Part shown: in pieces, positions 22,364-54,940 of the stretch
Layout of the letters: each line of letters starts with the position of its first letter
Position numbering within the stretch: the first letter of the stretch is position 1
Virus record (IMG/VR): IMGVR_UViG_3300023210_000011
Location: 1 to 64,000 of that record
DNA: 64,000 nucleotides
Reading direction: 5' to 3' (one strand)
Source of the DNA: a virus
Program-made: the position numbers and the translations under genes
The notes under the pieces: generated by a model
Told to the model about the DNA's origin: nothing
The model's database searches: none
Seen by the model: the letters and a program-made list of their open reading frames with translations, nothing else

Positions 22364-22417
22364 TGTGCCCTCCTGGGCAAGTGGAGAGGTTGGTCATACT
22401 CCTCCCCACTACTATAT

Positions 22418-22443
22418 TTATGCCCGAAATCAGCCTGTATTTA
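22418..22443 (-). promoter_or_regulatory. Phage promoter-like element P13
   Basis: Leftward TAAAT, 14 bases, GGCATAAATATAGTAG. It overlaps the stop of the gene at 22,441. Confidence 0.75.
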
Positions 22444-23028: not shown

Positions 23029-23093
23029 TGAACCCTCCGTGAATTTCTCGAGAGACTACAGTACACCGCGTACTGCTCTCCTCTCTACTTATA

Positions 23094-23119
23094 TTATGCC
23101 CGGAACTGACCCGTATTTT
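23094..23119 (-). promoter_or_regulatory. Phage promoter-like element P15
   Basis: Leftward AAAAT, 14 bases, GGCATAATATAAGTAG, upstream of the 37-residue gene. Confidence 0.7.
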
Positions 23120-23211: not shown

Positions 23212-23649
23212 TCAGCCTTCCAGCTCGAATCCGCCGACCAAGTCGGAGACCCAACCCCACTGCACGTCTTCGACGCCGTGGAACCCCAGAATCCGCGTCA
23301 CTTTCGTGCGCTTCCTGAAGTTGGACCCGCCTTTCAGCGACTCTGGATTGAACTCCACCCCGTGCTGCGTGCAGATCTCCGCCCAGGTGTCAAACCGGGC
23401 AGCGAACTTCACGCAGCTCGAGTGGCCGAGACCTTTCGGAATCGTCCACCCGAGCACACTCGGGACTGCTTGGCCGAGAAGAGCCCAGAGGCAGAACCAG
23501 ACGTCATTCCACTCCTCGCGGATGTGGGGGACGTCCAGGTCCCTGACTGCCTCGGCGAGTTCATGGAACTCCCCAAAACAGAACCTCCAGGTCATCGGAC
23601 CTGCCAGAAGATGACGCCTCAGGTCTGAGACCTTGAAGTGTTTCTTCAT
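23212..23649 (-). CDS. MazG-like pyrophosphohydrolase-type protein, 145 aa
   Basis: Residues 40-60 read VPHIREEWNDVWFCLWALLG, resembling the E-E-x-x-D helix of phage MazG-like proteins, and the C-terminal SNFRKRTKVTRILGFHG recalls the NxRKxxKV segment of that family. ATG 23649 lies only seven bases after the -10-like box with no ribosome site, so a leaderless message or a later start (residue 19, after AGG) is possible. Moderate confidence in family. Confidence 0.5.
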   Translation of the reverse strand: MKKHFKVSDLRRHLLAGPMTWRFCFGEFHELAEAVRDLDVPHIREEWNDVWFCLWALLGQAVPSVLGWTIPKGLGHSSCVKFAARFDTWAEICTQHGVEFNPESLKGGSNFRKRTKVTRILGFHGVEDVQWGWVSDLVGGFELEG

Positions 23650-23656
23650 ATCTATG

Positions 23657-23682
23657 TTATGCCCGTTCTACGGGCTAAATTT
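23657..23682 (-). promoter_or_regulatory. Phage promoter-like element P16
   Basis: Leftward AAATT, 14 bases, GGCATAAC; the predicted start of transcription falls at ATG 23649. Confidence 0.7.
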
Positions 23683-25545: not shown

Positions 25546-25554
25546 CTATACATA

Positions 25555-25580
25555 TTATGCCCGAATACGGGCACTATTTA
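25555..25580 (-). promoter_or_regulatory. Phage promoter-like element P18
   Basis: Leftward TAAAT, 14 bases, GGCATAAT; drives the structured-RNA unit. Confidence 0.75.
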
Positions 25581-26019: not shown

Positions 26020-26043
26020 ATGAACCTCCTTGGCTCATACACC

Positions 26044-26069
26044 TTATGCCCCAATAGAGGTCGGTTTTG
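26044..26069 (-). promoter_or_regulatory. Phage promoter-like element P19
   Basis: Leftward CAAAA, 14 bases, GGCATAAG, 25 bases upstream of ATG 26019. Confidence 0.65.
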
Positions 26070-27640: not shown

Positions 27641-27654
27641 CTGCTCTACTTACT

Positions 27655-27680
27655 TTATGCCCCAAACAGGTACGGAATTT
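27655..27680 (-). promoter_or_regulatory. Phage promoter-like element P20
   Basis: Leftward AAATT, 14 bases, GGCATAAAGTAAGTAG; ACTTCTTAGC lies 15 bases upstream of the first box. Confidence 0.7.
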
Positions 27681-28121: not shown

Positions 28122-28138
28122 TCTCACCTCCACCTATA

Positions 28139-28164
28139 TTATGACCTTTTGGGGCCAGAAATAA
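28139..28164 (-). promoter_or_regulatory. Phage promoter-like element P21
   Basis: Leftward TTATT, 14 bases, GTCATAATATAGGTGG; the upstream box is the weakest of the set. Confidence 0.5.
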
Positions 28165-29057: not shown

Positions 29058-29460
29058 TGGTGGACCTGGTGGGAGTCGAACCCACGTCCGCAGCATCATT
29101 CCTCAGTCCGTTCGCTACATCCCCGTACTTGACCCAGCGGGGCGGGTGTCCCAGGTGGCTTCCCCTGGCTCCAGTTGTCCTTCACGCGAGGCTCTAAAGG
29201 CCTCGCCGCATTCCAGCCCGCTGAGCAACTTCCTCTCTCTTGAGCTTGCGAAGTCTCGTTTTACACCTGGTGAAGCTCGACCAGCTTCCTCACCAAGCAC
29301 CGGGGCTCACGGAGTCCCCGGACTTCTCTCACGCGGCCGCGGCCACGGGAGCGAAGTGGTTGTTGTTGTTGGCAATTGTCGTTTGCCTCACCGTTAGGCC
29401 GGTGAGCACGCCGCAGCGCGAACTTTCGTGCAGATACCCCGTCGAAACCGTTTCAGGCCC
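29058..29460 (-). ncRNA. ssrA: Transfer-messenger RNA (tmRNA)
   Basis: The 5' end GGGCCTGAAACGGTTTCGACGG and the 3' end GGACGTGGGTTCGACTCCC...CAGGTCCACCA match the tmRNA tRNA-like domain; GGGCCTG pairs with CAGGTCC (one G-U) and CCA is encoded. A PK1-like stem CTCACCG/CGGTGAG lies before the tag reading frame. The best tag, from GCC at 29,373 to TGA at 29,329, is ANNNNHFAPVAAAA (14 residues). tmRNA rescues stalled ribosomes and marks products for proteolysis. Phage copies are known mainly in large phages. Tag start is inferred. Confidence 0.9.
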
Positions 29461-30446: not shown

Positions 30447-30485
30447 GGGTCACTCCAGTCGGGGTTAGATCTTCTGACATCAGCG

Positions 30486-30511
30486 TTATGCCGCGAAAAA
30501 TCGGGGGTTTT
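30486..30511 (-). promoter_or_regulatory. Phage promoter-like element P22
   Basis: Leftward AAAAC, 14 bases, GGCATAAC, 40 bases upstream of the 30,446 start. Confidence 0.6.
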
Positions 30512-36876: not shown

Positions 36877-39753
36877 ATGGACCACTTCTACCCGGAGTTC
36901 GAAAAGGAGGCGGACCTCGCCTCCTTCCTCGCCCCGGTAACGGAGAGAATCCAGGGCTTCTTCCAGTCCAAGGAGAAGAAGCGCGCGGCTCGCCGGGTGG
37001 AGGGGTTCCACAAGACGGAAGACAAGGACTGGGACGGGTTCACCGACCAGACTTCCCGCAAGAGCTTCGTCAAGCAGCTGGGGTCGGACACGCGCTCCGA
37101 TCCCAAGCTCCTGCAGTACGCCGACAACATGAACCGCCTCAAGACGGGCAAGCAGGTCGGAGAGGTCCAGGGAAGCCGGGGCACCTACAAGATCGTGAAG
37201 CTGCGGGGCCAGGATCGACTGGGGTGCTCCTGCAACGACTGGCGCTACAAGAAGTCCGTCGCGCAGCCTGGTGAGCAGGTGGACTGCAAGCACATCCGGC
37301 AGTTTCAGCAGCTGAAGGTTGCGGGTGTGAAGAAGCTCGAGCCCTCGCAGGGCGAGCGGGCTGAGTGGGAAAAGCGGGTAGCGCAGGCTGCGCTCTCGGG
37401 CGGGGACGGCGCCTCTCTGATGAAGACGGAAGAGGGCTTCGCAGCCTACACGCACCGCTCCCGTTCGAAGTTCTACCCAAGCCCCGCCTCCATTCCTCTT
37501 GGGAAGATCCGCTCCGTCGCGAAGACGGCGTCCTACCGCGAGGGCGGATCTTTCACGCACGACGGGCAGAAGTACTCTCTTGACGCCGCACTTCGATCCG
37601 CGGAGTCTCGCCCAGCCCTGCAGTTCTCGGTGGACGAGCTCAAGTGGGTGCTTCAGCATGACCGCCCCGACCCTTCGCGGGTACGAGCGGCAGACCTGCG
37701 TGCCCCTCTCTTGCTCGCACCCGACCGCAGGGGGCGGTGGACAGTCATTGATGGGCTGCACCGGCTCGCAAAGGCCGTGCGCGCAGGGAAAGACTCGGTC
37801 CCGGTCAAGATCTTGGCGCTGAGTGAGCTCCAGAAGACGGCCGCAGCAGTCACCTCCACGCTCAAGCCGCACCAGGAGCGGGTGCTGCGCAAGCTCGAGG
37901 ACAGCGACGGAGTCATCGTCGCGCACCGCGTAGGCGCCGGGAAGACGCTGACATCGATCGCCGCGGGCGTAGCGAGTGGCCGTCCCATGGAGGTCATCAC
38001 CCCTGCCTCCCTGACCAAGAACTACGAGAAGGAGCTCAAGAAGCACGTGAAGGGTGAGGTGAAGGCTCGTATCAGCTCCTACGAGAAGGCTGTACGGCGC
38101 GGAGCCAAAGAAGGGGAAGACAGCGTCGAGCCGGGATCTTTCCTGGTGCTCGACGAGGCGCACCGGCTGCGGAACGGAGGGACGCTAACCTCGAAGACCC
38201 TCCGTCCCGCGGCGCTGGAGGCCCACAAGCGGCTCCTCCTCACAGGCACCACGCTCTACAACCGCCCCTCTGATGTGGGGCCCCTGGCGAACGTGGCGGC
38301 GGGAGAGACAGTGCTCCCAGCGGACCCCACCAGGTTCGATCAGAAGTTCATCCAGGAGTCCGAGGTGTCCCCCGGGCTCTGGAACAGGCTGCGAGGGGTG
38401 AAGCCCGGTCTGCGGAAAGATCTGAAGAACGCCTCTCTTCTCCGCAAGGCGCTGTCAGGGCGCATTGATGTCCACTCAGAGGCATCGGCGGAGGACTTCC
38501 CTGAGCAGATCGAAGAGCGGATCGCAGTTCCGATGTCTCCGAAGCAGGAGCAGGTCTACGAGGCCGTGATGGGTGCCGCCCCGGCCCATGTGCGGAGGAA
38601 GATCCGCGCAGGGCTCCCGCCGTCGAAGCAGGAGTCCCGAATGTTGAACGCATTCACTACTGCAGGCCGGCAGGCTTCCCTCTCTCCGCGCCCCTATGTC
38701 GACGACATGACGAACGCGCAGGAGGCGGAGAACACCCCCAAGATCCAAGAGGCTGCGCGGCGGCTCCTGGACGCGCGGAAGACGGATCGAAGGTTCCGGG
38801 GGGTGGTGTACTCGAACTACATCGAGGCGGGCCTGAAGCCCTACGAGCGTGCCCTGAAGAGGCGGAAGATCAAGTTCAACACCCTCACGGGCAAGCTCAA
38901 CGCCAAGCAGAAAGCCCGCATGGTGGATGAGTACAACTCGGGGCAGACGCCCATCCTCCTCGTCTCGAGCTCGGGGACTGAGGGGCTGGACCTGAAGGGC
39001 ACGAAGATGGTCCAGGTCTTGGAGCCGCACTGGAACAACTCCAAGATCGACCAGGTGATTGGACGAGGAGTCCGGTACCAGAGCCACGCCCACCTCCCGA
39101 AGAAGGAGCGCAAGGTTCAGGTCCAGCGGTTCTACTCATCGCTGCCGAAGGGCTTCTTGGGCCGGAACAAGGGCAAGTCCACTGAGCAGTGGATCCAAGA
39201 TCGGGCGGACGACAAGACGCGCCTCTCCAACCAGCTGCGGGAAGTGTTCCAGCAGGCGAGTGACGAGCCCCCGCAGTCGCTACAGGGCCATGTGGCTCAG
39301 CGCATCCAGGAGCGCGCCCCCGGTTCCGGGTACGAGGTCGCCAAGATCCAGGCGCGCATCCCCAAGATGACGCTCCGCCCAGGAAAGACCTACCATGTGC
39401 CGCTCGCCAGAGGGCGGGGCTGGGTCGTGATAGGCGACATCGGTGGCCGGCACGTCGTGAAGACGGTCTTCGGTCCCAATATGCGGCCCCCGGGAGAGCG
39501 CGTGCTGGTCAAGCAGGCCCGCGCACCCCGCGACTACAAGAAGGAGTATGCGGAGTACCACGCCACCCCAGAGCAGCGGAAGAACCGTAGCCTCCGGAAC
39601 CAGGCCCGCCGGAAGGTGGGGCTAAGCAAAGGTGATCCCCGAGAGGTAGACCACAAGACTCCGCTCTCTCGTGGCGGCGGAAATGGCTCTGGGAACCTGC
39701 GTGCAGTTAGCTTCGAGCTCAACCGCAAAAAGTCAAACGGAGAAGCACGATGA
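36877..39753 (+). CDS. SWIM / ParB-like / SNF2 helicase / HNH nuclease fusion
   Basis: 958 residues. An N-terminal segment ends in LGCSCNDWRYKKS...VDCKH (residues 117-139), a SWIM-type C-x-C...C-x-H zinc motif. A ParB/Srx-like domain (about residues 265-310, with DGLHRLAKAV) follows. The SNF2-type superfamily 2 motor has HRVGAGKT (about 351), LVLDEAHRL (about 425), LLLTGTTLYN and IDQVIGRGVRYQS. The last 40 residues (EVDHKTPLSRGGGNGSGNL) are an HNH nuclease. The motor plus nuclease suggests DNA translocation and cutting. N-terminus FYPEFEKEA resembles a shared motif of this module. Confidence 0.8.
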   Translation: MDHFYPEFEKEADLASFLAPVTERIQGFFQSKEKKRAARRVEGFHKTEDKDWDGFTDQTSRKSFVKQLGSDTRSDPKLLQYADNMNRLKTGKQVGEVQGSRGTYKIVKLRGQDRLGCSCNDWRYKKSVAQPGEQVDCKHIRQFQQLKVAGVKKLEPSQGERAEWEKRVAQAALSGGDGASLMKTEEGFAAYTHRSRSKFYPSPASIPLGKIRSVAKTASYREGGSFTHDGQKYSLDAALRSAESRPALQFSVDELKWVLQHDRPDPSRVRAADLRAPLLLAPDRRGRWTVIDGLHRLAKAVRAGKDSVPVKILALSELQKTAAAVTSTLKPHQERVLRKLEDSDGVIVAHRVGAGKTLTSIAAGVASGRPMEVITPASLTKNYEKELKKHVKGEVKARISSYEKAVRRGAKEGEDSVEPGSFLVLDEAHRLRNGGTLTSKTLRPAALEAHKRLLLTGTTLYNRPSDVGPLANVAAGETVLPADPTRFDQKFIQESEVSPGLWNRLRGVKPGLRKDLKNASLLRKALSGRIDVHSEASAEDFPEQIEERIAVPMSPKQEQVYEAVMGAAPAHVRRKIRAGLPPSKQESRMLNAFTTAGRQASLSPRPYVDDMTNAQEAENTPKIQEAARRLLDARKTDRRFRGVVYSNYIEAGLKPYERALKRRKIKFNTLTGKLNAKQKARMVDEYNSGQTPILLVSSSGTEGLDLKGTKMVQVLEPHWNNSKIDQVIGRGVRYQSHAHLPKKERKVQVQRFYSSLPKGFLGRNKGKSTEQWIQDRADDKTRLSNQLREVFQQASDEPPQSLQGHVAQRIQERAPGSGYEVAKIQARIPKMTLRPGKTYHVPLARGRGWVVIGDIGGRHVVKTVFGPNMRPPGERVLVKQARAPRDYKKEYAEYHATPEQRKNRSLRNQARRKVGLSKGDPREVDHKTPLSRGGGNGSGNLRAVSFELNRKKSNGEAR

Positions 39754-40688
39754 AACCCGACTACCGAGGCCTGCGGGCGCACATGCAGAAGGCGAGTCCG
39801 TTCCAGGAAAAGGCGGGCGGCATCCATGGGAGCCCTCATGGAGGCCACAGCCGAGAGGCCCTCCTCGCAGAGCAGGAGCGGGTACGCAGGCAGTTGGCCG
39901 GGGAGAAGGTAGCGGGCGCCCGAGAAGCTCTGCGAGTTTTTCTCACGGGAAAGGTTCCGGTCCGCCACGGAACTACCAAGGCGGTGGCAAAGAAGATTCG
40001 CGCCACCGGCCTGCGTCCGCAGGGGTCAGCAGGCATCTCTTCGTTGCTCGCCGTTCCCGGAGAAGAAGGACTTGCCTTCACTACGAGGTCGAAGGCCATG
40101 GCGAAAAACTACGCTCAGCAGGCTGAAGGCCTCGCCAAGGCGAAGGCGCTGAGGAGGCACATACCGATTGAGCAGAAGCGGCAGATCCTGAACTCCCCTG
40201 CGGTGCAGGGCATGCAGCGCCAGTTCGAGGCTACCGGAAGCTCTGCGAATATGGGAGACGTGTTGCAGGCTCAAGCGGGCAGGGCCCTATCCTTCTTCGG
40301 CAAGGGAGATGTTGTGGAGGCCCGCGTTCCCTGGAAGAAGCTGCGGGCGCGCGAGGCTCCTGGGAGGGAACTCCATGCACCCGTGGTAAAGAGCCAGAGG
40401 GAGGCGCTGTCCCAGATTCACCCCTCTCTCGAACAAGTCCCGGCCGCAGCGTTCATGACTGATGTTCCTGTTCGCGGGGGCTTGCCGGCTGAGTACATCA
40501 AAGGGTCTCCCTCGTATATGCGCACGAGTGTGGGCAGCCTCCGTGACCACCTTCGGAGCATCAAGGACGAGCCCAAGGCCTTTGGCAAGGAGGTTCTTCG
40601 CGCCTACGCCGGCATGCAGCATCGTCCCTCGACTCTGCTGGGCCAGGATCCTGCTCTCCGCAGAAGGCTCCTCGGAGTAGCCGAGTAG
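39750..40688 (+). CDS. Putative ADP-ribosyltransferase-fold protein, 312 aa
   Basis: VPVRHGTTKAVAKKIRATG, LAFTTRSKAMAKNYAQQA and VVEARVPWKKL follow the order of ADP-ribosyltransferase-fold proteins: H/R-G-T-x strand, G-(L/V)-x-F/Y-T strand with A-x-x-Y/YA helix, and a final V-V-(E/x)-x-x-V-P strand with glutamate. T4 packages such an enzyme (Alt) to modify host proteins at infection. It overlaps the helicase-nuclease by four bases, so the two are coupled. Confidence 0.5.
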   Translation: MKPDYRGLRAHMQKASPFQEKAGGIHGSPHGGHSREALLAEQERVRRQLAGEKVAGAREALRVFLTGKVPVRHGTTKAVAKKIRATGLRPQGSAGISSLLAVPGEEGLAFTTRSKAMAKNYAQQAEGLAKAKALRRHIPIEQKRQILNSPAVQGMQRQFEATGSSANMGDVLQAQAGRALSFFGKGDVVEARVPWKKLRAREAPGRELHAPVVKSQREALSQIHPSLEQVPAAAFMTDVPVRGGLPAEYIKGSPSYMRTSVGSLRDHLRSIKDEPKAFGKEVLRAYAGMQHRPSTLLGQDPALRRRLLGVAE

Positions 40689-40860
40689 TCAACACCGCGA
40701 ATAGTCCATTTGCCCTTGGCATGAAAAAGAAGATAATTCGCTTCATCGTGGCCCCTGTAAAGGTGTCACACCAGGCTTTCCCGGACAATCCAGTACGTCC
40801 CTGGTGCGGTGAATACTCCTTCGATTTCTCCGGAGATTTCTCGGTTTCCTCACACCGATG

Positions 40861-40886
40861 TTATACCGGAAAAACGGAGGGAATTT
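40861..40886 (-). promoter_or_regulatory. Orphan phage promoter-like element P24
   Basis: Leftward AAATT, 14 bases, GGTATAAC. It fits the family but points into the rightward late region and ends one base before the ATG at 40,887, with no leftward gene next to it. It may give antisense RNA. Confidence 0.45.
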
Positions 40887-41150
40887 ATGCCGCCACAGAA
40901 GAAGACCATTGCGGTCCTGCTGACGCAGGTGACGGAGCTCCGGCAGCGTGCTGCGGTCCAGACTGCCCTCGTGCAGATCTTGCGGACCCGGTATCTGCCG
41001 AGGGATGGGGTCCCGGAGGCCCTGGCCCAGATTGACTGCGAGGGGGCACCCGTCTCTGCCGACATCATCGAGGAGATGGTGGAGGAGTTGGAGGATGTGG
41101 TGTCGGAAATCAACAAGGAAGTCCGCTCGATTCTGAGCCAGGAGGCCTGA
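40887..41150 (+). CDS. Helical hypothetical protein, 87 aa
   Basis: ATG 40887 with ACGGAGG. MPPQKKTIAVLLTQVTELR and DIIEEMVEELEDVVSEINK are helical, suggesting a coiled-coil protein. Coupled to the next gene. Function unknown. Confidence 0.5.
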   Translation: MPPQKKTIAVLLTQVTELRQRAAVQTALVQILRTRYLPRDGVPEALAQIDCEGAPVSADIIEEMVEELEDVVSEINKEVRSILSQEA

Positions 41151-41531
41151 ATGCCATCGCGCACCGAACGACTCGAAGCCAAGTTCACTGAGCTCGAGCA
41201 GCGCATCGCCCTACTGGAGAAGATCCAGTCCGAGGGCATCGATCACCTGATCACCGAGATCCAGAGGCTGTCAGAGAATGACGGAGTACTCGGGGAAGTC
41301 GCAGAGCAGCATGACAACCTCCTCGCAGCACTGCGAGCACTGCTCGATGAGAAGAAGGTCGTGAGTGACGCCGAGGTCACCGCGAAGACCCAGGAGATCT
41401 CAGATCTCCGAGAGCGTGCTCAGAAGAGCCGGGACCAAGAGGCCGAGCTCCGGCAGGTGGCCTTCCGCGCAGAGGAAGCAGCCAAGGAAGAGGCAGGTCA
41501 CCCGAAGGAAGCGTTCATCTTCGGGAGCTAA
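41151..41531 (+). CDS. Coiled-coil protein, 126 aa
   Basis: Long heptads throughout (EAKFTELEQRIALLEKIQ, EISDLRERAQKSRDQEAEL). A scaffold or fibre-like role is possible. Last gene before a bidirectional terminator. Confidence 0.55.
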   Translation: MPSRTERLEAKFTELEQRIALLEKIQSEGIDHLITEIQRLSENDGVLGEVAEQHDNLLAALRALLDEKKVVSDAEVTAKTQEISDLRERAQKSRDQEAELRQVAFRAEEAAKEEAGHPKEAFIFGS

Positions 41532-41541
41532 GGCCTTCGAG

Positions 41542-41573
41542 GCGTACGGGGGTCCCGAAGGACCCCCGTACGC
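41542..41573. terminator. Bidirectional terminator
   Basis: GCGTACGGGGGTCC / GGACCCCCGTACGC, fourteen perfect pairs around CGAA, between convergent genes ending at 41,531 and 41,580. Confidence 0.85.
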
Positions 41574-41579
41574 TCTTGC

Positions 41580-42065
41580 TCACCGCTGGCCGCACTGCCC
41601 GCAGTAGCTCTCGGTCTCTGTTCCGTGACGGCAGAAATCTCCAGACTGGAGAATTCGCTGTTGGATGGCATCTTCTCTCTCGACAAGAACTCCATCGAGA
41701 GTCTCTACCCGCAACTCCATATTGCCGAGGTCTCCGTCCCACATGCGGTCTCGCACGATGCGGTGTGCCCGAGAGTCTACGAAGTCGCGCGGGCCTGTCT
41801 GCTTTACCCAGTCTCGTGCCGGCCAAGAGGCAAAGCGCCAGCGGACCTGGAAGGTAGCAGGCGAGGGTGAGGATGGCTGATCGGGCTTCCGGACCCGGAC
41901 CCATGCGAGGGTCCAGACTTCTCCTGTCTCTGGATCTTTCCGTCCCAGGTCTTCGTCAGTGGCGAAGGTCTGGTCACTCGAGTCGATGATCGTGGAGATC
42001 TCACGATCGAAGAGCCCGCAGGGCTCAAACGTGTCGAGGTCGGGGACCTCCAGGGTACGGGGCAT
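41580..42065 (-). CDS. Hypothetical protein, zinc knuckle at C-terminus, 161 aa
   Basis: Beta-rich body (VWTLAWVRVRKPDQP, TFQVRWRFASWPARDW) and a C-terminal CRHGTETESYCGQCGQR knuckle. Last gene of the ligase operon. Confidence 0.55.
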   Translation of the reverse strand: MPRTLEVPDLDTFEPCGLFDREISTIIDSSDQTFATDEDLGRKDPETGEVWTLAWVRVRKPDQPSSPSPATFQVRWRFASWPARDWVKQTGPRDFVDSRAHRIVRDRMWDGDLGNMELRVETLDGVLVEREDAIQQRILQSGDFCRHGTETESYCGQCGQR

Positions 42066-42106
42066 CAGTCCTCCAGGTATTTGCTGTGCCAGTCCGGGAT
42101 CTTCAT
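42065..42106 (-). CDS. Possible leader peptide, 13 aa
   Basis: ATG 42106 with GAGG encodes MKIPDWHSKYLED; its stop overlaps the next ATG (TGATG), a typical reinitiation arrangement. Confidence 0.3.
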   Translation of the reverse strand: MKIPDWHSKYLED

Positions 42107-42336
42107 GTAGACCTCAAAACGTGATTGAAATGGCGCGTGGTTCGGCGTGTCCTGGTGAGGAACCCCGAGAACAGGGGGGAGTAGCCACAGCTCTTGCACT
42201 GCAGCGTGGGGGTCAGCTGGTAGCCGCCCGGAGGGGGCGTGCCTCGCTGGTTCCACGGGCACTGGACGAGCACCTGGCCCATCTTGTAGTGCTTCTTTCC
42301 GCAGTCGGGGCAGGGAATGTAGGAAGGACGCCTCAT
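42103..42336 (-). CDS. Zinc-ribbon protein, 77 aa
   Basis: MRRPSYIPCPDCGKKHYKM and LQCKSCGYSPLF form CPDC...CKSC, a ribbon about 40 residues across. The tail is basic (TRTRRTTRHFNH), so it may bind nucleic acid. Confidence 0.6.
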   Translation of the reverse strand: MRRPSYIPCPDCGKKHYKMGQVLVQCPWNQRGTPPPGGYQLTPTLQCKSCGYSPLFSGFLTRTRRTTRHFNHVLRST

Positions 42337-42599
42337 GTCGTTCCCCACCGCTCTACGGCCGTGAGCGGTGCCTTGCATCCCCAGAACCGGAGCCGAATGA
42401 CCAGTCCCCGGCCCCGGTTCTGCTCCCAGGCTCCGTGCCTGAAGTCGAGCACTCCGGCGTACACGCGCTCGGCTACTCGACGCTCAATCGGAGCACCCGG
42501 GCAGTGCGTGGTGAGCTCTCCTTCTGCGAGGTCGCAGACCACGCACTCAGAGATGCCCTCGTGTCCGGGGACATCTCTGAGCTTGTGCTCTCGGGACAT
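42333..42599 (-). CDS. Hypothetical protein with CVVC, 88 aa
   Basis: MSREHKLRDVPGHEGISEC begins a segment with CVVC and a C-P near residue 33, then a beta-rich end (GRGLVIRLRFWGCKAPL). Possible metal site. Directly follows the stop of the gene above. Confidence 0.5.
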   Translation of the reverse strand: MSREHKLRDVPGHEGISECVVCDLAEGELTTHCPGAPIERRVAERVYAGVLDFRHGAWEQNRGRGLVIRLRFWGCKAPLTAVERWGTT

Positions 42600-42764
42600 C
42601 TACCGCCCGCCCCAAGGGAGGAGAGTGCCTCCCCGGATCTCGCGTTCTACGCCGCACTCACAGCGGCACCACCAGGTCACTTGGCCGTTTTTCTTTCCGT
42701 GTCTTCGAAGTACAGACCACTTCCCATAGGCGTGCCCAGTTTCATCTTTCACTTTTGCTGCCAT
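42600..42764 (-). CDS. Small zinc-binding protein, 54 aa
   Basis: ATG 42764, inside the end of the ligase gene, encodes MAAKVKDETGHAYGKWSVL followed by WWCRCECGVEREIRGGTLL. The YGKW-S/T-V...C-x-C-x-C-G pattern is common in short phage proteins and at the N-termini of HNH homing endonucleases, where it likely binds DNA. No nuclease follows it here. Confidence 0.55.
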   Translation of the reverse strand: MAAKVKDETGHAYGKWSVLRRHGKKNGQVTWWCRCECGVEREIRGGTLLPWGGR

Positions 42765-44052
42765 AGGTCAGACTCTCCTCGATGCACTCTTCTGCCTCCT
42801 TGTCGTCGCGAAATCGAACGACCCGAGGGAACTGAAGTGCGTTGGTGGCCTCCCCGTCGGCGATGAAGGTCCGGCTGGCGAATTGAATCTCTGCGACCAC
42901 AGGGAACACGCCAGGAGTGCTGAGCCAGTTCCTGTGGTCCTGGGTGAGTCCTCCTCCGCAGTCGCACAAGTAGACCAGTTCTCCGTCGGCGTCGTATTGG
43001 TGGAGGGCTACGGACCCTACCTTTCCACGGTTCTTCCCGCGGCCGTACTTGCCGACGCCCTGTTCGGGGTCCCATAGGCAGACAGCATCCAGTTCGAAGA
43101 CGGGCTTCAGCTTGCAGCAGGTGTTCGGGCGGTCGGGCTTGCCGCGCAGGTTGAAGGACTTCTCGCCGTAGGTGGAGTGCGGGTCCACGATGACGAAGCC
43201 CTCCCACCCCTGAGCGACCAGGGTGTTGCGGAGTCCCTCGACCCCCTTGTAGTCGCCTTCGATGAAGGTCTCCGGCGGATGTACGAACTGGCCGGAGAAC
43301 AGGTCCGCGTGGTCCAGGCGGAACCGGTACTGCATCTCTCCGAGCAGCTGGAGCCCGGCAGCCCAGGCCACGTCCCAGCAGATGAAGTGCAGGAACCCGG
43401 TCTTCTCCTGGATCTCGAGGGCCTTCGGAGTCAACGACTTCATCACCTTCGCGACCCGCCATCGATCATCCGCGTCAGGCCCGTTCACGATCTCGCCCAA
43501 CAGGATGGTGTTGTTCGGGATCTCGTCGTTCTCCTCGATCTCCGTGGCGATGTGGTCGAAGCGCTCGCGCCAGGTGTGCTGATCTTCGAGGTGGTGATTC
43601 GTCAGCATCCGTCGGCTGAAGAAGATCGCCTCCCCCTCGGAGTTCTTGACGATGACCATCATCTCGCCATCGTACTTCCGCACCGCCCACGCCTTCCCGT
43701 CCTCGACCATCTTCTCCATCTTCTTGTTCAGCGAGTTCTGAGGCTTGTAGAAGGACAGGTTGTCCACGATGCCGTGCTCGAAGGGGCTGTAGTCAGCGGT
43801 CTCCTCCAGCTTCGTGTCGTAGCCCTTCCGCATCTTCTTCGAGATCAGGCGATCCATCATGTTCTGCGCGTCTTGCTCAGCCGAGACCTCGTTGCTGCGC
43901 CCCGCGTGCTTGGCGGTTCCGTAGTCCGTGACCTCCTGCATCTTCCCGTCGAGCTGGCCGAAGCGCGTGTGGACCGCGTTCCCCTCGACAGCGATTTCCC
44001 AGACCCGCACAGCGCCGGTGCGCGCACGGTTATAGAGTGTGGTGTAGTTCAT
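42742..44052 (-). CDS. ATP-dependent DNA ligase with N-terminal WGR domain
   Basis: The first about 80 residues resemble a WGR domain (YNRARTGAVRVWEIAV, HTRFGQLDGKMQEV). The ligase core has the active-site lysine in VRKYDGEMM (K126), LLGEIVNGP (motif III), WEGFVIVDP (motif IV) and CKLKP (motif V). It seals nicks with ATP, forming an enzyme-AMP intermediate; WGR domains bind DNA or nicks in PARP enzymes. Start ATG 44052 follows GGAGG. First gene of its operon. Confidence 0.85.
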   Translation of the reverse strand: MNYTTLYNRARTGAVRVWEIAVEGNAVHTRFGQLDGKMQEVTDYGTAKHAGRSNEVSAEQDAQNMMDRLISKKMRKGYDTKLEETADYSPFEHGIVDNLSFYKPQNSLNKKMEKMVEDGKAWAVRKYDGEMMVIVKNSEGEAIFFSRRMLTNHHLEDQHTWRERFDHIATEIEENDEIPNNTILLGEIVNGPDADDRWRVAKVMKSLTPKALEIQEKTGFLHFICWDVAWAAGLQLLGEMQYRFRLDHADLFSGQFVHPPETFIEGDYKGVEGLRNTLVAQGWEGFVIVDPHSTYGEKSFNLRGKPDRPNTCCKLKPVFELDAVCLWDPEQGVGKYGRGKNRGKVGSVALHQYDADGELVYLCDCGGGLTQDHRNWLSTPGVFPVVAEIQFASRTFIADGEATNALQFPRVVRFRDDKEAEECIEESLTYGSKSER

Positions 44053-44067
44053 TGTGCCTCCGGGGGA

Positions 44068-44093
44068 CTTATGGCCGGGAAAACTGAAATCTT
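44068..44093 (-). promoter_or_regulatory. Phage promoter-like element P25
   Basis: Leftward AAGAT, 14 bases, CCATAAG, drives the ligase operon; it overlaps the start of the divergent gene at 44,071. Confidence 0.6.
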
Positions 44094-44318: not shown

Positions 44319-44669
44319 TCATCCGACCTGGGCGTACCCATCTCGGACCAGCCCCAGTCGGCGGGGCTGGTCCATGATGATGTGACGCACCTTTCTCGAC
44401 ACATCCTCCTTACTCCTGTTGGGCCAGCCTTCCGCCAGCCACCACATCGCCTCCCTGCCGGTCATCAAGACCGAGATGTCGAGCACCTCGATCTTGACGT
44501 CGAGGAACTCAGGCCTTTGAGTAACTGGCTCCCTGCCCGTCCCCGACGACAAGTTCTTCGCGAACTTGTCGTCGTCCCGGCGGGCCTGGCGGCCCGCCTG
44601 GTTCTGGCTGTCGATTGCCTGGATGGCGCCGACAGCCGCGGCAACGATGCCGCAAGTCACAAAGAACAT
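44319..44669 (-). CDS. Putative membrane-anchored protein, 116 aa
   Basis: ATG 44669 with GGAGG. The N-terminal MFFVTCGIVAAAVGAIQAI is hydrophobic (signal anchor), followed by a basic/polar linker and a soluble part (IEVLDISVLMTGREAMWWL). Single-gene unit after P26. Confidence 0.55.
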   Translation of the reverse strand: MFFVTCGIVAAAVGAIQAIDSQNQAGRQARRDDDKFAKNLSSGTGREPVTQRPEFLDVKIEVLDISVLMTGREAMWWLAEGWPNRSKEDVSRKVRHIIMDQPRRLGLVRDGYAQVG

Positions 44670-44690
44670 CGTTCCTCCTGTGTACTATAC

Positions 44691-44716
44691 TTATGCCCGA
44701 TTCCGAGGTGTAATCC
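44691..44716 (-). promoter_or_regulatory. Phage promoter-like element P26
   Basis: Leftward GGATT, 14 bases, GGCATAAGTATAGTAC; it ends exactly at the base before the tape-measure ATG on the other strand. Confidence 0.6.
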
Positions 44717-48064: not shown

Positions 48065-48319
48065 ATGAGTGACGACACCCAGATCGCTTCCAGGATTTCC
48101 GACACCCGCCCGGAGTCTTCTTTCGCATACCGAGACGAGCGAGGGATCAACCGGGAGGTCCGCATCGTGGACTACCCGACCCCCGACGACATCGCTCGGC
48201 AGGGGATGATGCAGGCGGCAGGGGAGATCGCCCTGGGTACCGGATACTCTTCCACCATGGACTACGACATGGTGACGGAGATGATCCGTACTCGAGTCCC
48301 TGTGCGGAGGACCCGATGA
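48065..48319 (+). CDS. Small structural-module protein, 84 aa
   Basis: MSDDTQIASRISDTRPESS start, followed by strand-rich FAYRDERGINREVRIVDYP. It lies between the tape-measure-like gene and a tail protein and overlaps the latter by four bases, so a virion or tail-assembly role is likely. Confidence 0.55.
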   Translation: MSDDTQIASRISDTRPESSFAYRDERGINREVRIVDYPTPDDIARQGMMQAAGEIALGTGYSSTMDYDMVTEMIRTRVPVRRTR

Positions 48320-49989
48320 GCACACCTGCGATCTTCCAGGCTCCCCTCGCGGCGGACTTCGCGGGAAGGCAGGGTCTCCATGTCTACGACGCCACCGATA
48401 CCGCAACTGTGGCCATCGAAGGTGTGGCGAGTTCCAAATTCGTACGCCGGCCCATGCGAGGGATCGTCGTCAAGAAAGACACGTACGCCAGCATCACGGT
48501 CGTCACTGCTGGGGGCGCGGCAGGGCTGTCGCTGCGGAATAGCAGTCATCCCCCCGGCACTCCCCCGAACTACACGTCGAACTTCGTCCTGCAGTCCGTG
48601 ACAGAGACCCGGAACGAGAAGGCGCAGTTCGTCACCACCTTCGGGGCCACCTACGCGTTCTTCTTCGGGGAGCAGCCACGGATCATCAACTGCTCTGCGA
48701 TCCTGCCGAACACGGCGGACTTTGAGTGGAGCAAGGAGTGGTGGCTCAACTACGAAGAGCGGCTCCGTGGGACCTCCCTGGCGAGCACGAACACGAAGGT
48801 GCGACTCCAGTACGATGAGCAGGTGGTCACCGGCTACCTGACAAACTGCACCACCATCCAGACCTCCATGGAGCCCAACTCCCTGCAGGTCAACTTCTCC
48901 CTCTTCGTAGAGAGCATCACCCGAGGTGGAGGTTCGAGAGAGTCTGATGCGCGGGCGTACCGTCGCTCGGGAACCTCAGACTACCTGGGAGTCGGTGCCT
49001 TGGATGATGTCCAGGATACCGCGCTGCTGGCCGACAGCTCCACGGCGGCTGTCCGCAAGACGAACATCAAGCTGTCCCCTCTGTCCGCTGGTGCTCCCGG
49101 GGCGATGAGCAAGTTCCTCTCTGCTCTGAACGAGATCGACGCAGCGATGGACAACGGAGTCCGCAAGATCCGGAATGCCCTCTACGGGCGGAACTTGGTC
49201 GTGCCGGTCAGCTTCACTTCCAGTCGAGCGAGCCGTGCCATCTTCGCGTCGGGCTCGGCGTCGGAAGACCTGGCGGGCCTGGAGGTCACGAACTTCTTTG
49301 GCGCGTCTCTCCTGGCGTTCAGCGACGGCACACCCCGTCCGGGACAGAACTCCGTGACGCTTCGCACGAACACGGATGGGTTCCTGGCCCTGGATGCGGC
49401 GCGCAAGGTCCAGAACGACGCGGTCTTCAACTTCCAGAACTTCGACGAGTACGTCAACTACCCGACTGCGACCTATGTGTCTGAGATCGGAGACCAGGCG
49501 ATCCGGGAATCTGAGCTCCGTGAGCTCGGCAGTGAGGAGGCCTTCTACAGCAACCGCGGGATCGCGGCATTCCAGGCATTTGGAATCAACGTGGCACCCT
49601 TCCCGCAGGTCCCCGGGGTGCCTCTTGAGCGCCAGGACACCGACATGGTGGTGCAGACCGCCCTCGGCTACCGGAGTGCGGCTGCGGCCAAGCAGCGCAC
49701 CGGGGAGATCGTGAGGACGATCGCCCGTGCGGCATTCGGCGTCGCAGTGCTCGGCTACGGGTACAGCGTGGTGAACGCACGGCGCCGTCTGCAGGAGAGT
49801 GTGAACAACCCGAACTCCGGAGGGCTCTCCGCATCTCAGCGTCAGGAGCTCCAGGGCAAGATCGACCGTGCTCAGAGGACTGAGGAGCAGCGCCGCTTGG
49901 TCAGCGAGGCTGCGGCGGCAGACCTCCGGGGCGAGACCGGCACGGTCTACCCGGGGACCCTGGGTGCGGCCCTCTCGGTGGTGCTGTGA
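48316..49989 (+). CDS. Tail/baseplate structural protein, 557 aa
   Basis: Beta-rich first half (KFVRRPMRGIVVKKDTYAS, FFFGEQPRIINCSAILPNT, WWLNYEERLRGTSLAS) resembles tail proteins near the tube-baseplate junction. The C-terminal helix (ARRRLQESVNNPNSGG...) is charged. Position directly before the hub-like protein supports a baseplate or tail-terminator role. Family uncertain. Confidence 0.5.
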   Translation: MSTPAIFQAPLAADFAGRQGLHVYDATDTATVAIEGVASSKFVRRPMRGIVVKKDTYASITVVTAGGAAGLSLRNSSHPPGTPPNYTSNFVLQSVTETRNEKAQFVTTFGATYAFFFGEQPRIINCSAILPNTADFEWSKEWWLNYEERLRGTSLASTNTKVRLQYDEQVVTGYLTNCTTIQTSMEPNSLQVNFSLFVESITRGGGSRESDARAYRRSGTSDYLGVGALDDVQDTALLADSSTAAVRKTNIKLSPLSAGAPGAMSKFLSALNEIDAAMDNGVRKIRNALYGRNLVVPVSFTSSRASRAIFASGSASEDLAGLEVTNFFGASLLAFSDGTPRPGQNSVTLRTNTDGFLALDAARKVQNDAVFNFQNFDEYVNYPTATYVSEIGDQAIRESELRELGSEEAFYSNRGIAAFQAFGINVAPFPQVPGVPLERQDTDMVVQTALGYRSAAAAKQRTGEIVRTIARAAFGVAVLGYGYSVVNARRRLQESVNNPNSGGLSASQRQELQGKIDRAQRTEEQRRLVSEAAAADLRGETGTVYPGTLGAALSVVL

Positions 49990-52900
49990 GCTCCCCCGGG
50001 TTCCACCTGCATCTCCGGCTGTTCCTCGAGGGCCTCGAGGTCCCGGTGATTGGTGCGTCGGTCACCACGCAGATCGGCTCCGCGGCGACCGCGAACATCC
50101 AGGTGGTGCCGGACGACGCGCTACTCGAGCTGCTGCCCCGCACGGTGGTCCATCTCTTCGTACTGGACTCCATGGAGTTCGCAGCCAGTGGCCGGACTCA
50201 GAGAGCCGGGGACGACTTCTACAAGCTGCTCTTCTGTGGGGAAGTCTCTGGGGTCCAGTTCTCGAAGGCAGGGGCCGGTTCACGGTCGGCCTCGCTGAAC
50301 TGCATGGATTTCTCGAACGTCTGGGACACGAACTACGCGTTCTCCCTGAACTTCGGAGCCAGCAGCGGGGACGCCACGACCATCGAGAACCGCTCAGCGT
50401 TCTTGGCGATCTCTCAGCCGTCGTTCGACAACATCATCCAGACTCCCGCGACGCTCGTGCGGTTGATCTCTCAGCAGAGGCCGCAGGCAGCGGGCCAAGC
50501 AGGGGCGCAGTCTGTGCTCGGAGGGCTGTTCAGCGTCCTGGAGGCGCTCAGTGGCGTCCAGGGGGCCTTCATGGGCGCAGGGCCCTGGCCCACAGTCCAG
50601 GAGAGGCGCACACGCGTCCTGGACTCCATCGTGTCCGATTCTGGGGAGACCGCTGCGGCGCTCTACTCCGCTGCGACGTTCTCTGAGTGGCTGAAGGGCC
50701 GACAGGGGCAGGTGGGAGCAGTCAGCTCGTTCCGCGACACCATCAACATGATCCTCGGGTTCATCTTCTACGATTTCGTGCCGAATCCGGCACCGAAGTA
50801 CATCAGAGGAGAGGACGCGGAGAAGGAGCACCCTGGTCGGGATGTGCCCTATTCATCCAAGGGCGCCCTCCGAGAGAAGATCCTGTCGGAGTTCTCTGCC
50901 AAGGACGGTGTGGTCAGCGATCCGCGAAAGCTGATCAACCTCAACCTCGAGTTCTTGGAGAAGGTGGTCATCCTGCTGTCCGGCCTCAAGGAGCGGGTCG
51001 GAGACCCTCTGATCTACAAAGGGCCGGGATCTGCCCCTGGTGGAGAGGACACGGGGTACAAGTTCGATTTCCGGATCCACGACGGGTGGCGCGAAGATGA
51101 CGTCATCAGCACGGCGCACGAGCGTGGGTTCGCAATTGACATCGGGCATCCCCAGTTCTCCGGGAGGCTGTTCGCAGGAAGTATGCCCTTCAACCTCAAA
51201 GATGGGGTGGCCCAGCCGACTCTGCTGGAAGAGGCCGTTGGTGTGCAGGGGAAGTTCCGGCACGTCATGTACCAGTGGGAGGCGCTGGGAAAGGGTAAAC
51301 TGTCGAATCTCTGGGATCTGGAGATGGCCGCGCAGGACGAGGCATACCGGCGCCTCTGGGCATCTGGTCAGGAGATCTACGACGATATTCAGATGCTGAA
51401 GGCGCTTAGCGCCTGGGTGGACGTGGTCCTGGTAGAGACCGACAAAGATCCAGACCTCCAGTCGGGAGGGGACCCCCTCGATTGGCCCTTGACCCCAGAT
51501 CCGCTCTTCGCGCTGGTCGGCGTGGCCAACGATCCTGTTCATGTCCAGGACCGGCACCACAAGACCAAGTTCTCCGAAGCTGAGGGAACCCTCCAGGCGG
51601 GGGCGACCGGAAGGGGAGTCAGAGAGAGGCTCAACTCTTTCATCTTCCGGCCCAACATCTGGTTTGCGGCACCGCCGCGGTGCAATGTCATCTACCCAGA
51701 TCAGGTCACATCTTTCAGCATGCAGCGGGCCATGCTCCGAGAGACTACGCGACTGCAGCTCAACATCGCGTTCGACCAGATCAAGGAGAAGACGAAGCAG
51801 TTGGACCGTCTGGCGTTCGCCCCCAAGCTGGTGGGAGAGGAGCAGAACGTCCAGAAGGGGCTCGGGAGCGCAGACAAGGTGATCATCCACGATCACGAGG
51901 TCTACAGCGGCGTCATCCCGAAGTTCGAGCGAGCCTCGGACCTCCTCTACTACCGGCTGAAGGGAGTGGAAACGGGAAGCGGCACGGAGTCTGAGTCTCG
52001 GATCGACACTTTCGCAGACCGCCTCGCGCACTTCCACCTGCTCTCGAATCGGTACCTGTCGCGCAGTGCGTCTGTGGCCGGAGTGTTCAACCTGAACCTC
52101 GTCTGCGGGTTCCCTGGCGTCGTGGTTGGGGCCCCCCTGTCTGCCTACGAACTGCAGAAGACGGAGAAGGGAGCCCGCTCTGACAGAGTCCACTGGTTGG
52201 GGATGCTCTCGTCAGTCACGCACTCGATCACGCAGGGCGGCGCCCAGACAAACGTGTCGCTCACGCATGTCCGGTCGCACCGTACGGGTGATAGGACGGA
52301 CGATCTCTTCTCTGAGAACATCAATAGCAGCGGGCAGCTGACGATCCAGAGCCGCGCAGAGATTCTTCAGGGGCAGGGGATCTTCTCCGTGGAGTCCGGG
52401 ACCTCTATCGGGGTCTTGAACTCCACCCCCGAGTCGGTGCCTTCGCGCCTGGGGCTGCCGCTGGACGAAGATCCGAACTCCCTCTACTTCTGGGAGGCCC
52501 TCGGAGTCCTCATCGGAGACTTTCGGACGTACCTCAGAAACCTGCCGAAAATCTACGGGGATCGTGCGGGCTTCCTCATCGACCCGAGCACGTTCCCTCC
52601 CACTGACCTGACCGCGACAGGGGTGCAGGCCGGGCAGTCTGTAGCGATCCCAGAAGTTCCAGTGCCCGGGGGCAAGACCACCAAGGGCGTCATCTGGACG
52701 GGGCCGCCCACCACGGTGGCAATCCGTGCCCGGGGGTCCATGCCTCCAGGAGAGGAAGTTGTAGCGGTACTCGAGGTGGACTCTCCCTTTTCCATACAGA
52801 ATCAGACCGGCGGCACCATCACGCAGTTCGTGAAGGAGAAGAAGTCCGCTGCGTTCTGGGACTCTGAGGACGTCCACGGCGTCGTAGAATTCCTGGTCAC

Positions 52901-53648
52901 GCTGCCCGGAAGTACGCTGACGGTAGAGGAAGTTGACGCGGACGCGCGCCTTGGCTTGCCGGTGGAGGAGGCCATCCGTCCCTCTTGGATCTCGTCGGAC
53001 TACAGCACCGAGAAGGTAGAGACGGGCAACATCACCAAGATCTCAGAGCGGGTGTACCTGCCGTTCTTCGGCTCACCGTGTATCGTCGACCGGGTCTTGT
53101 CTGAGGATCCGCCGGAAGGCCTGGTTCGCCATTCTGTGGAGCAGGCCGTAGACCGCCTGGTGTGGGACTACTCCGAGGCTGTGGACAAGGGTTCCCGCTA
53201 CGTTCTCCAGTTCATCCATGGGTCTACCCACAGGAAGGTGGCCACTCTCCGCGAGGTGCTTGCGGACAAGACCCAGAAGCTCGGACCCGATGGGTGGGTC
53301 CATGAGCCTCGTGGGCCAGGTGGATTCAAGGACAGGAAGTACGCCCGGTACGGGGGATTCCACTCCAACGCTGTGAACTTCGGTCTTGTGGACTATGGAT
53401 CCGAGCTCGAGTTCCTCGACTTGGAGGGTCCGCTACGTTCCCGATATGGGTCGGGGCGGGAAGATCTGTCCAAGCAGATCACCAACGAGCTCGATCCCCG
53501 GGCTGAGCGTGCCCGCCGGGTAATCCGGTACCGGGGCCAGGTCCGGGCAGCGACATCGCTGACCAAGCGGCCCCGAGTGTCCTTGAGCCCCGATGGCGAG
53601 GATGCTACGATCCAAAATACTCCCCTCGGCATCGCCAAAAGAGGCTGA
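49986..53648 (+). CDS. Baseplate hub-like protein, 1220 aa
   Basis: GTG 49986. The first 130 residues (FHLHLRLFLEGLEVPVIGA, SAATANIQVVPDDALLEL, RTVVHLFVLDS) resemble the gp27/gpD-type hub barrel. A later segment (SFIFRPNIWFAAPPRCNVI, YPDQVTSFSMQR) is typical of hub proteins that carry the tail tip. The C-terminal half is beta-rich with a peptidoglycan-unrelated composition. It precedes the wedge genes. Hub assignment is by context and pattern. Confidence 0.5.
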   Translation: MSSPGFHLHLRLFLEGLEVPVIGASVTTQIGSAATANIQVVPDDALLELLPRTVVHLFVLDSMEFAASGRTQRAGDDFYKLLFCGEVSGVQFSKAGAGSRSASLNCMDFSNVWDTNYAFSLNFGASSGDATTIENRSAFLAISQPSFDNIIQTPATLVRLISQQRPQAAGQAGAQSVLGGLFSVLEALSGVQGAFMGAGPWPTVQERRTRVLDSIVSDSGETAAALYSAATFSEWLKGRQGQVGAVSSFRDTINMILGFIFYDFVPNPAPKYIRGEDAEKEHPGRDVPYSSKGALREKILSEFSAKDGVVSDPRKLINLNLEFLEKVVILLSGLKERVGDPLIYKGPGSAPGGEDTGYKFDFRIHDGWREDDVISTAHERGFAIDIGHPQFSGRLFAGSMPFNLKDGVAQPTLLEEAVGVQGKFRHVMYQWEALGKGKLSNLWDLEMAAQDEAYRRLWASGQEIYDDIQMLKALSAWVDVVLVETDKDPDLQSGGDPLDWPLTPDPLFALVGVANDPVHVQDRHHKTKFSEAEGTLQAGATGRGVRERLNSFIFRPNIWFAAPPRCNVIYPDQVTSFSMQRAMLRETTRLQLNIAFDQIKEKTKQLDRLAFAPKLVGEEQNVQKGLGSADKVIIHDHEVYSGVIPKFERASDLLYYRLKGVETGSGTESESRIDTFADRLAHFHLLSNRYLSRSASVAGVFNLNLVCGFPGVVVGAPLSAYELQKTEKGARSDRVHWLGMLSSVTHSITQGGAQTNVSLTHVRSHRTGDRTDDLFSENINSSGQLTIQSRAEILQGQGIFSVESGTSIGVLNSTPESVPSRLGLPLDEDPNSLYFWEALGVLIGDFRTYLRNLPKIYGDRAGFLIDPSTFPPTDLTATGVQAGQSVAIPEVPVPGGKTTKGVIWTGPPTTVAIRARGSMPPGEEVVAVLEVDSPFSIQNQTGGTITQFVKEKKSAAFWDSEDVHGVVEFLVTLPGSTLTVEEVDADARLGLPVEEAIRPSWISSDYSTEKVETGNITKISERVYLPFFGSPCIVDRVLSEDPPEGLVRHSVEQAVDRLVWDYSEAVDKGSRYVLQFIHGSTHRKVATLREVLADKTQKLGPDGWVHEPRGPGGFKDRKYARYGGFHSNAVNFGLVDYGSELEFLDLEGPLRSRYGSGREDLSKQITNELDPRAERARRVIRYRGQVRAATSLTKRPRVSLSPDGEDATIQNTPLGIAKRG

Positions 53649-53893: not shown

Positions 53894-54135
53894 TGGCCAA
53901 CGACCTCTTCCAGCGAGACCATCACCTGTCTCACGCCGCAGAGATGTCGAACGTGGCCAACACGAACGAGATCTTGGATGATCTCTTCACCCGACGTGAC
54001 GATCTGGCCGCCCGGTCCTACCGGCAGCTCTCGGGCCTGTTCTCCGGCAAGGAGCACTACGGGCGCAACACCCGCTTGGGCATGTCTGCTCGCGAGGCCG
54101 GTCGCCTGGTGAACCGGGCATTCTCGGATGGCTGA
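53893..54135 (+). CDS. Small protein, 80 aa
   Basis: ATG 53893 (TGATG overlap) encodes MANDLFQRDHHLSHAAEMS, a polar, helical protein (TNEILDDLFTRRDDLAARS). Coupled to the sigma-like gene. Function unknown. Confidence 0.55.
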   Translation: MANDLFQRDHHLSHAAEMSNVANTNEILDDLFTRRDDLAARSYRQLSGLFSGKEHYGRNTRLGMSAREAGRLVNRAFSDG

Positions 54136-54940
54136 CCTCCGGAGCCGACTCGAGAAGATCGCGGCAAAGGACCCGTACCAGTTCCCGACTTCTTGGACGT
54201 CCGGGCAGCCGATGTCGTCTCGGGCCGCTCAAGATCTGGACCTGTGGCGGCAGTGGAAGACCTCCAAGGAAGACCCAGAGAAGCTGGCTCCGCTCCTCAC
54301 GTCGCTCAATCCAGTCATCTCTTCGCAGGTGAACCGGCACCGGGCCCCGAGGATCTACAAGCCTGCGATCGAGGCCCACGCGCGCACCCTGGCAGTCCAG
54401 GCACTCCGTCGGTATGACCCGACCCGGAAGGCTGCGGTCGCATCGCACGTCCAGAACAACCTCAAGGGTCTCAACCGCTACGTGAAGAAGCATCAGAACT
54501 TCACGCGGATCGTAGAGGCACAGGCCAACAAGATCGGGCCGTACTCGCGGGCCAAGGCTGTGCTCGAGGAGGAGCTGGGCAGGGAGCCCACCACCTTCGA
54601 GCTCGCAGACAAGCTCAAGATGAGCCCGAAGAAGGTCGAGCGCCTGGCGAAAGAGATCCGGCCGGACATCTTCAACCTGCCGGCAGTCGGAGAAGATGCG
54701 TTCGAGTCCTCCCCCTTCGAGGAGGAGTCCCCCAGGCACCGCGAGGTCATCGCGATGCTGCCCTACGAGCTCACAACCGACGAGACAGCAGTGTTCAACT
54801 ACCTCTTCGGTAAGGGAGGGAAGCGCAAGATGGAGGTGATGAACGACATCGCGCGTGAACTCGGGTGGTCTGCGTCCAAGGTCTCCCAGGTCAAGAACTC
54901 GATCTCGAAGAAGTACCGCGACTACCTGAGAAGCTTCTGA
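54128..54940 (+). CDS. Sigma-70-family transcription factor
   Basis: 270 residues. A region-2-like segment includes LRRYDPTRKAAVASHVQNN and RYVKKHQNFTRIVEAQ; a region-3-like helix has EEELGREPTTFELADKLKM; a region-4 helix-turn-helix lies near the C-terminus (MNDIARELGWSASKVSQVK). The order and spacing fit sigma-70/FliA proteins, which direct RNA polymerase to promoters. It sits among tail genes, so it would be made late or packaged. N-terminus ADLRSRLEKIA echoes the shared motif. Confidence 0.75.
   Translation: MADLRSRLEKIAAKDPYQFPTSWTSGQPMSSRAAQDLDLWRQWKTSKEDPEKLAPLLTSLNPVISSQVNRHRAPRIYKPAIEAHARTLAVQALRRYDPTRKAAVASHVQNNLKGLNRYVKKHQNFTRIVEAQANKIGPYSRAKAVLEEELGREPTTFELADKLKMSPKKVERLAKEIRPDIFNLPAVGEDAFESSPFEEESPRHREVIAMLPYELTTDETAVFNYLFGKGGKRKMEVMNDIARELGWSASKVSQVKNSISKKYRDYLRSF

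Follow-up and report, generated by a model that had tools for sequence, protein, structure and literature searches.

The sigma factor gene and its neighbourhood

The window analysed here, a stretch of 64,000 nucleotides, covers positions 1-64000 of record G000, a fragment of 131,435 bases that terminates within a capsid gene. At 54128-54940 on the plus strand it harbours a gene that starts with ATG and encodes a protein of 270 aa, a proposed virion sigma factor. This protein is a genuine member of the sigma-70 family. The initial annotation had recognised segments resembling regions 2, 3 and 4 in it, and its sigma-70 identity is borne out by searches with Pfam, PHROG and a profile built from 26 relatives of the protein, all of which gave matches. 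Region 3 (residues 135-176; 54530-54655, plus strand) matches Pfam PF04539 Sigma70_r3 with E=1.9e-11, scoring 44.3 bits where the cut-off is 25.3, and phrog_351 'RNA polymerase sigma factor' matches residues 124-267 (4.3e-9). The profile of the 26 relatives retrieved SigA chains at 1.3e-14, in an alignment that spans region 2 through region 4. Domain 2 (residues 31-126; 54218-54505, plus strand) was identified by the family profile and by its fold. The AlphaFold model, whose mean pLDDT of 75 and pTM of 0.42 make domain placement uncertain, matches several sigma region-2 domains over ~92 residues at 2.1-2.5 A (Z ~11). A putative region-4-like helix-turn-helix (residues 203-269; 54734-54934, plus strand) appears in the profile alignment to SigA and as helices in the model, although a Pfam region-4 match is absent.

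In the window's family, domain 2 carries Y-D-P-x-K/R plus the invariant residues R117, Q123 and N124, and the D-P and S/T-H signature is retained in region 2.3, where the Trp pair of housekeeping sigmas is missing. The N-terminal 30 residues are peculiar to the window's branch. The top NCBIfam match is to the bacterial FliA/WhiG sigma subfamily (1.6e-9, residues 90-267), yet its 37.9 bits fall far below the cut-off of 189.6 and the protein is not a member of that subfamily. Within G000 this gene is the sole match to the sigma-family (A2) profile; since the record ends inside the capsid gene, the absence of other factors there carries little meaning.

The location of the gene in a late module, pointed out in the initial annotation, is confirmed by neighbours that match tail and baseplate genes of Salmonella phage Arash and Vibrio phage D69. 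The product of 48316-49989 (plus strand) is a homologue of Arash gp6 (5e-6) and D69 gene 7 (7e-7), that of 49986-53648 (plus strand) is a homologue of D69 gene 9 (2e-6) and stands in the same place as Arash gp8, and downstream of the sigma gene a Baseplate_J protein is encoded whose Arash homologue is gp13. Arash shows the same gene order as the window, with a large structural gene, a small gene, the sigma gene, another small gene and structural genes, and D69 has this order around its sigma gene as well. The location is therefore old and conserved, and not a chance insertion. The window also encodes, at 36877-39753 (plus strand), an SNF2-type helicase homologous to Arash gp217, which adjoins the Arash RNA polymerase (RNAP) gene and is listed in the particle.

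The particle proteome of Arash comprises 116 proteins, among them both RNAP pieces and the sigma factor gp10 (PMC10585845). Unique peptides numbered 24 for gp10 (234 aa), 128 for gp206 (1525 aa) and 40 for gp216 (606 aa), the two latter being the RNAP, compared with 30 for the capsid protein (307 aa), 32 for the portal (579 aa) and 2 peptides for the DNA primase (965 aa) (PMC10585845), the lengths being taken from the sequence records used in this analysis. Metabolic enzymes are on the list too, as is an RNA ligase (14 peptides); the list likely includes some carry-over, which its authors acknowledge (PMC10585845). A second Arash sigma, gp196, is missing from the virion table (PMC10585845). 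The initial annotation had offered two readings of a sigma gene among tail genes, namely a factor packaged in the virion and injected, or a late-gene role. The former is the better of the two, because the homologue in the same position, Arash gp10, is in the particle together with the phage RNAP. Among the proteins of G000, the pattern K[AILET]A, one of several tried, occurs within the first 40 residues in 18/65 plus-strand (late) and 8/87 minus-strand proteins (p=0.004), the plus-strand set including the sigma N-terminus; a packaging signal near the N-terminus of late proteins is a possible interpretation.

Promoters of the non-structural strand

A repeat search of the window returned ten copies of a 24-nt family. 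Shine-Dalgarno (SD) sequence and ATG stand downstream in the minus orientation, and the repeats are thus read in that direction. The promoter form is T.AAAT, about 14 nt, and G[GTC][CT]ATAA, the last element reading G[GT]CATAA in the ten repeat copies. Next to the core comes an AT-rich stretch that ends in GTAG, and a short leader leading to the SD and ATG comes after it. The cores recovered both by the repeat search and by matrix score lie on the minus strand at 11710-11725 and 12243-12258 (both GGCATAATAATAGTAG), 21004-21019 (GGCATAATAGTAGTAG), 22409-22424 (GGCATAAATATAGTAG), 23085-23100 (GGCATAATATAAGTAG), 23648-23663 (GGCATAACATAGATAT), 25546-25561 (GGCATAATATGTATAG), 27646-27661 (GGCATAAAGTAAGTAG), 28130-28145 (GTCATAATATAGGTGG, followed by SD and ATG) and 44682-44697 (GGCATAAGTATAGTAC). 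One more, at 11101-11116 (GGCATAAGTATTGTAG, minus strand), was found by matrix score. The GGCATAAGTATAGTAC core lies within the structural region, upstream of a minus-strand gene at 44319-44669. Weaker candidate promoters, all on the minus strand, were given by the pattern at 1958-1973 (GCCATAAGCCATCTGT, in a minus-strand leader), 3849-3864 (GCCATAAAGCCCTCAG), 6496-6511 (GCCATAAGCTCTCTGC), 19810-19825 (GTCATAACGAGCATAC), 30477-30492 (GGCATAACGCTGATGT) and 44060-44075 (GCCATAAGTCCCCCGG), and by matrix score and pattern at 21650-21665 (GGCATAAGTCTCCTAC) and 26035-26050 (GGCATAAGGTGTATGA).

That these sites form a uniform promoter class, as initially annotated, is borne out. With the matrix score set at 16 or above, 11 sites are recovered; reversing the matrix leaves 0, and shuffled genomes yield 0.5 each. 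The simple pattern gives 27 matches on the minus strand and 0 on the plus strand of the whole record, while its reversed control gives 2 and 2. In G000 the minus strand is the non-structural one and the plus strand the structural one, and when only genes whose upstream space measures 40 nt or more are counted, 19/47 minus-strand leaders contain a promoter as opposed to 0/19 on the plus strand (Fisher p=6e-4; the gene calls come from a simple codon-usage model, which makes these denominators approximate). The class had been thought to serve an accessory array, and this proved too narrow, as it fronts minus-strand operons generally, including the start of the DNA-polymerase block at 80-96 kb. 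Scans for host-type TTGACA/TATAAT consensus promoters over 60 of the 64 kb of the window (all but 40001-44000) revealed no excess over shuffles (3 vs 2.9, 3 vs 2.6 and 0 vs 2.1).

A stable 5' hairpin is predicted at the transcript start in the leaders after 11116, 22424, 23100 and 23663. The mean leader hairpin z is -1.55 in G000 (12 sites), -1.41 in the 164 kb record G003 (17), -1.08 in D69 (25) and 0.0 in Arash (35), random controls being near 0. The Arash value led us to reject the hairpins as a general trait of the promoter class; they are confined to some branches.

The phage RNA polymerase and its lineage

Beyond the window, at 101896-108222 of G000, an RNAP gene adjoins the portal gene, which precedes it as in Arash. 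It encodes a fused beta-beta' enzyme, a single chain of 2108 aa with the domains Rpb2_6 (3.3e-63), Rpb1_2 (7.3e-32), Rpb1_5 (4.8e-23) and Rpb1_3 (1.1e-9) and an intact catalytic motif, NADFDGD, at 1398. The chain aligns to bacterial beta' through the clamp-helix region, which in bacterial beta' binds sigma domain 2. The fused RNAP is the likely partner of the window sigma, lying where the initial annotation could not see it. Eleven IMG/VR loci encode the fused RNAP at 70-100% identity, 2 of the 11 contigs being the window's own phage (100% identity). A site of the promoter family at 101859-101874 of G000 stands 22 nt before the RNAP start codon and is oriented away from the gene, and such an outward-pointing site occurs 20-22 nt from the start codon in 11/11 RNAP contigs.

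A profile scan returned 39 sigma loci. Rpb1_2 is present in 17/20 large sigma-bearing records, and the three negative ones (G019, G023 and G027) are contigs of 107-117 kb. With a single pattern, GGTATAAGTAANRTRK, allowing up to 2 mismatches, a one-strand promoter family was found in 15/20 records, at 9-33 sites on one strand against 0-5 for controls. G003 carries its own promoter form, GTCATAATA, and G015 has 35 plus and 1 minus sites of the form GGTATAAGAA; the family counts 35 minus and 1 plus in Arash, and 25 minus and 1 plus in D69. The 107 kb contig G008 holds a weak promoter set only, and in G012 and G013, where sigma and RNAP are present, de novo seeds gave no strand-biased family. When the viral collection was scanned by exact motif first, 20 stretches in 12 contigs were obtained, of which 13 fall in 5 contigs already known to have sigma and RNAP. 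Sigma was seen in none of the remaining 7 motif-scan contigs, three of which are too short or sparse to be judged. Among these 7, a 40 kb contig with 11 one-strand matches resembles a piece of a genome from this lineage, another of 9 kb has 3 matches, and the matches in G033 and G034 look like chance. The motif is common to phages of Salmonella, of Vibrio and of a GC-rich host. Sigma, RNAP and homologous one-strand promoters repeatedly co-occur in a deep lineage of phages that includes Arash and D69.

Two further features of the promoters were considered. The first base of the -10 element is C in the window's branch and T elsewhere, and it covaries with differences in sigma region 2.4; with two branches only, this covariation was given no weight. 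In 8/34 loci, all in Arash-like records (L072, L074-L077, L092, L101 and L005; the Arash site is at 11588-11603, plus strand), the strand of the sigma gene carries a match to the promoter family 293-325 nt ahead of that gene. Autoregulation of sigma is possible in the Arash-like branch, and was discarded for the window's branch, where the upstream match is missing.

The second Arash sigma, gp196 (OQ632216.1, 120656-121693; L124:43656-44693), matches Sigma70_r2 at 6e-10 and has the canonical TYAGWW melting motif. Relatives of gp196 occur in 14/21 records searched, a set that includes G000 and D69 and leaves out Arash itself; none was found in G000, G003, G008, G011, G012, G023 or G027, and the best E values in a profile search for a second sigma were 0.57 in G000 and 0.59 in G003. 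Since G003 and G000 keep their promoters without a detected gp196, this factor seems not to be required to read them. A core resembling T4 late promoters, TAAAATA, prefers the structural strand in Arash (8:1) and D69 (14:1), and in G015 it favours the strand opposite the early sites by 7:3, whereas no excess was found in G000 and G003 (0:1 each) or in G008; the counts are small and the pattern was noticed post hoc. This distribution suggests a two-sigma switch in the Arash-like relatives, in which gp196 would serve the TAAAATA late class and the virion sigma the non-structural class.

A candidate virion holoenzyme and its alternatives

We consider that the window sigma is probably the promoter-specificity subunit of the phage-encoded RNAP, packaged and injected, and that it reads the minus-strand non-structural promoters early. 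The sigma and RNAP genes stand in structural modules, and their products would be made late. Both the sigma and the fused RNAP would then be packaged, entering the next cell alongside the DNA, where the promoter recognised by the holoenzyme would be bipartite, with T.AAAT near -33 and G[GTC][CT]ATAA plus the AT-rich discriminator at -10. It would thus begin early transcription of the minus-strand non-structural operons, host sigma not being needed. Binding of sigma to RNAP, reading of the class by this sigma, packaging in the window phage and early timing are the steps that we infer. Late synthesis followed by packaging and injection would resolve the oddity of an early-type sigma among tail genes. 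A broader proposal, on which we are evenly divided, is that the virions of a whole lineage of tailed phages bring in a complete bacterial-style holoenzyme, made of a fused core and a sigma-70 factor with a bipartite promoter code. In Arash-like phages gp196 and TAAAATA would complete a host-independent cascade from early to late genes, while in the window's branch the early step would be carried out by the virion sigma alone.

The position of the gene in the late module could instead mean a late sigma, produced along with the tail genes or shortly before them, that activates the structural operons while host holoenzyme reads the minus-strand promoters. The model is T4 gp55, a phage sigma relative that redirects transcription as a late sigma for the host core, acts at a -10-only promoter and is devoid of regions 3 and 4. 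The preference of TAAAATA for the structural strand in Arash and D69 would fit such a role, but relatives of the Arash/D69 type own gp196, which is missing from the virion table and is a better candidate for serving late genes. In G000 and G003 the tail sigma is present, yet TAAAATA shows no excess. Unlike gp55, the window sigma has a region 3 above the cut-off, a region-4-like part and a bipartite promoter. If the family is cognate, promoters before structural genes, as in the gp55 type, are found in 0/19 plus-strand leaders of G000. A late role appears unlikely. Phage sigmas usually act on the host core, according to the reviews drawn on here, and the family is bacterial-like across regions 2-4, so the packaged sigma might steer host core to the class, leaving the phage RNAP to serve later genes or to work with another factor. 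That RNAP is among the strongest proteins listed for the Arash particle (PMC10585845), and it co-occurs with the sigma across the lineage, which makes this arrangement decidedly improbable.

The host -10 consensus is TATAAT, and the Arash-form TATAAG matches it at 5/6; given this, the host may read the promoter class. Carried further, host sigmas would read the promoters and the tail protein would be a domesticated structural part that has lost its role in transcription. The tail-module position, the loss of the Trp pair from region 2.3 and the closeness of TATAAG/CATAAT to a generic -10 agree with this, but generic TTGACA/TATAAT promoters are no commoner than in shuffles over the 60 of 64 kb scanned, the motif is found alike in Salmonella phages, in Vibrio phages and in those of a GC-rich host, and regions 2, 3 and the region-4-like part are all kept. 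We regard such domestication as very improbable indeed.

The closest known system to the one we prefer, a virion sigma paired with the phage RNAP, is Arash gp10 with gp206/gp216 (PMC10585845). Its sigma and RNAP are homologous to those of the window phage, the order of genes around the sigma is shared, and our scan found a homologous promoter family on one strand. Arash differs in having the second sigma gp196, an RNAP split by inserted genes, and the promoter core GGTATAAG in place of GGCATAA. The Arash paper describes no promoters, the word 'promoter' being used 0 times (PMC10585845). In phiKZ-type phages, a multisubunit-type RNAP is packaged and injected for early genes (PMC7598289, PMC13282480). 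The window phage likewise encodes a multisubunit-type RNAP with its catalytic motif. The phiKZ-type enzyme consists of several polypeptides with no sigma homologue by sequence, whereas the window phage has one 2108-aa chain and a sigma-70-family protein. In the Thermus phage P23-45, the RNAP is fused to the tape measure and delivered with the tail/virion, and an AT-rich early promoter motif is described (PMC10770324); that fusion sets it apart from the window phage, and the part of the paper drawn on here reports no sigma. Tailed phages of the mReC lineage resemble the window phage in having an RNAP similar enough to the cellular enzymes to be detected by HMMs, and in the mReC paper 'sigma', 'promoter' and 'virion' have 0 occurrences each.

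Reviews, in the portions used here, state that at the sequence level phage multisubunit RNAPs have no sigma homologues, phiKZ gp68 being a structural analogue, and that phages with clear sigmas have no RNAP; phage sigmas are regarded as tools for using host RNAP. Here sigma and phage RNAP occur together, with position conserved and promoters kept from Salmonella to Vibrio phages. Among open-licence PMC papers, we found none that brings a phage sigma together with a phage multisubunit RNAP and a shared class of promoters. That Arash carries both a sigma and an RNAP is already in print; within that search, the new element is the lineage-wide linkage with a promoter code. If the pairing is true, it would explain how such phages can begin transcription, and one core chain with one sigma would form a minimal holoenzyme that can be purified and directly tested. 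It would also offer a natural comparison for sigma-core function without alpha and omega.

Two other genes of the window lie on the minus strand. A tmRNA gene with the tag ANNNNHFAPVAAAA is found at 29058-29460, and a PolyA_pol/CCA-adding-type nucleotidyltransferase with an HD domain is encoded at 23721-25160, in the minus-strand array.
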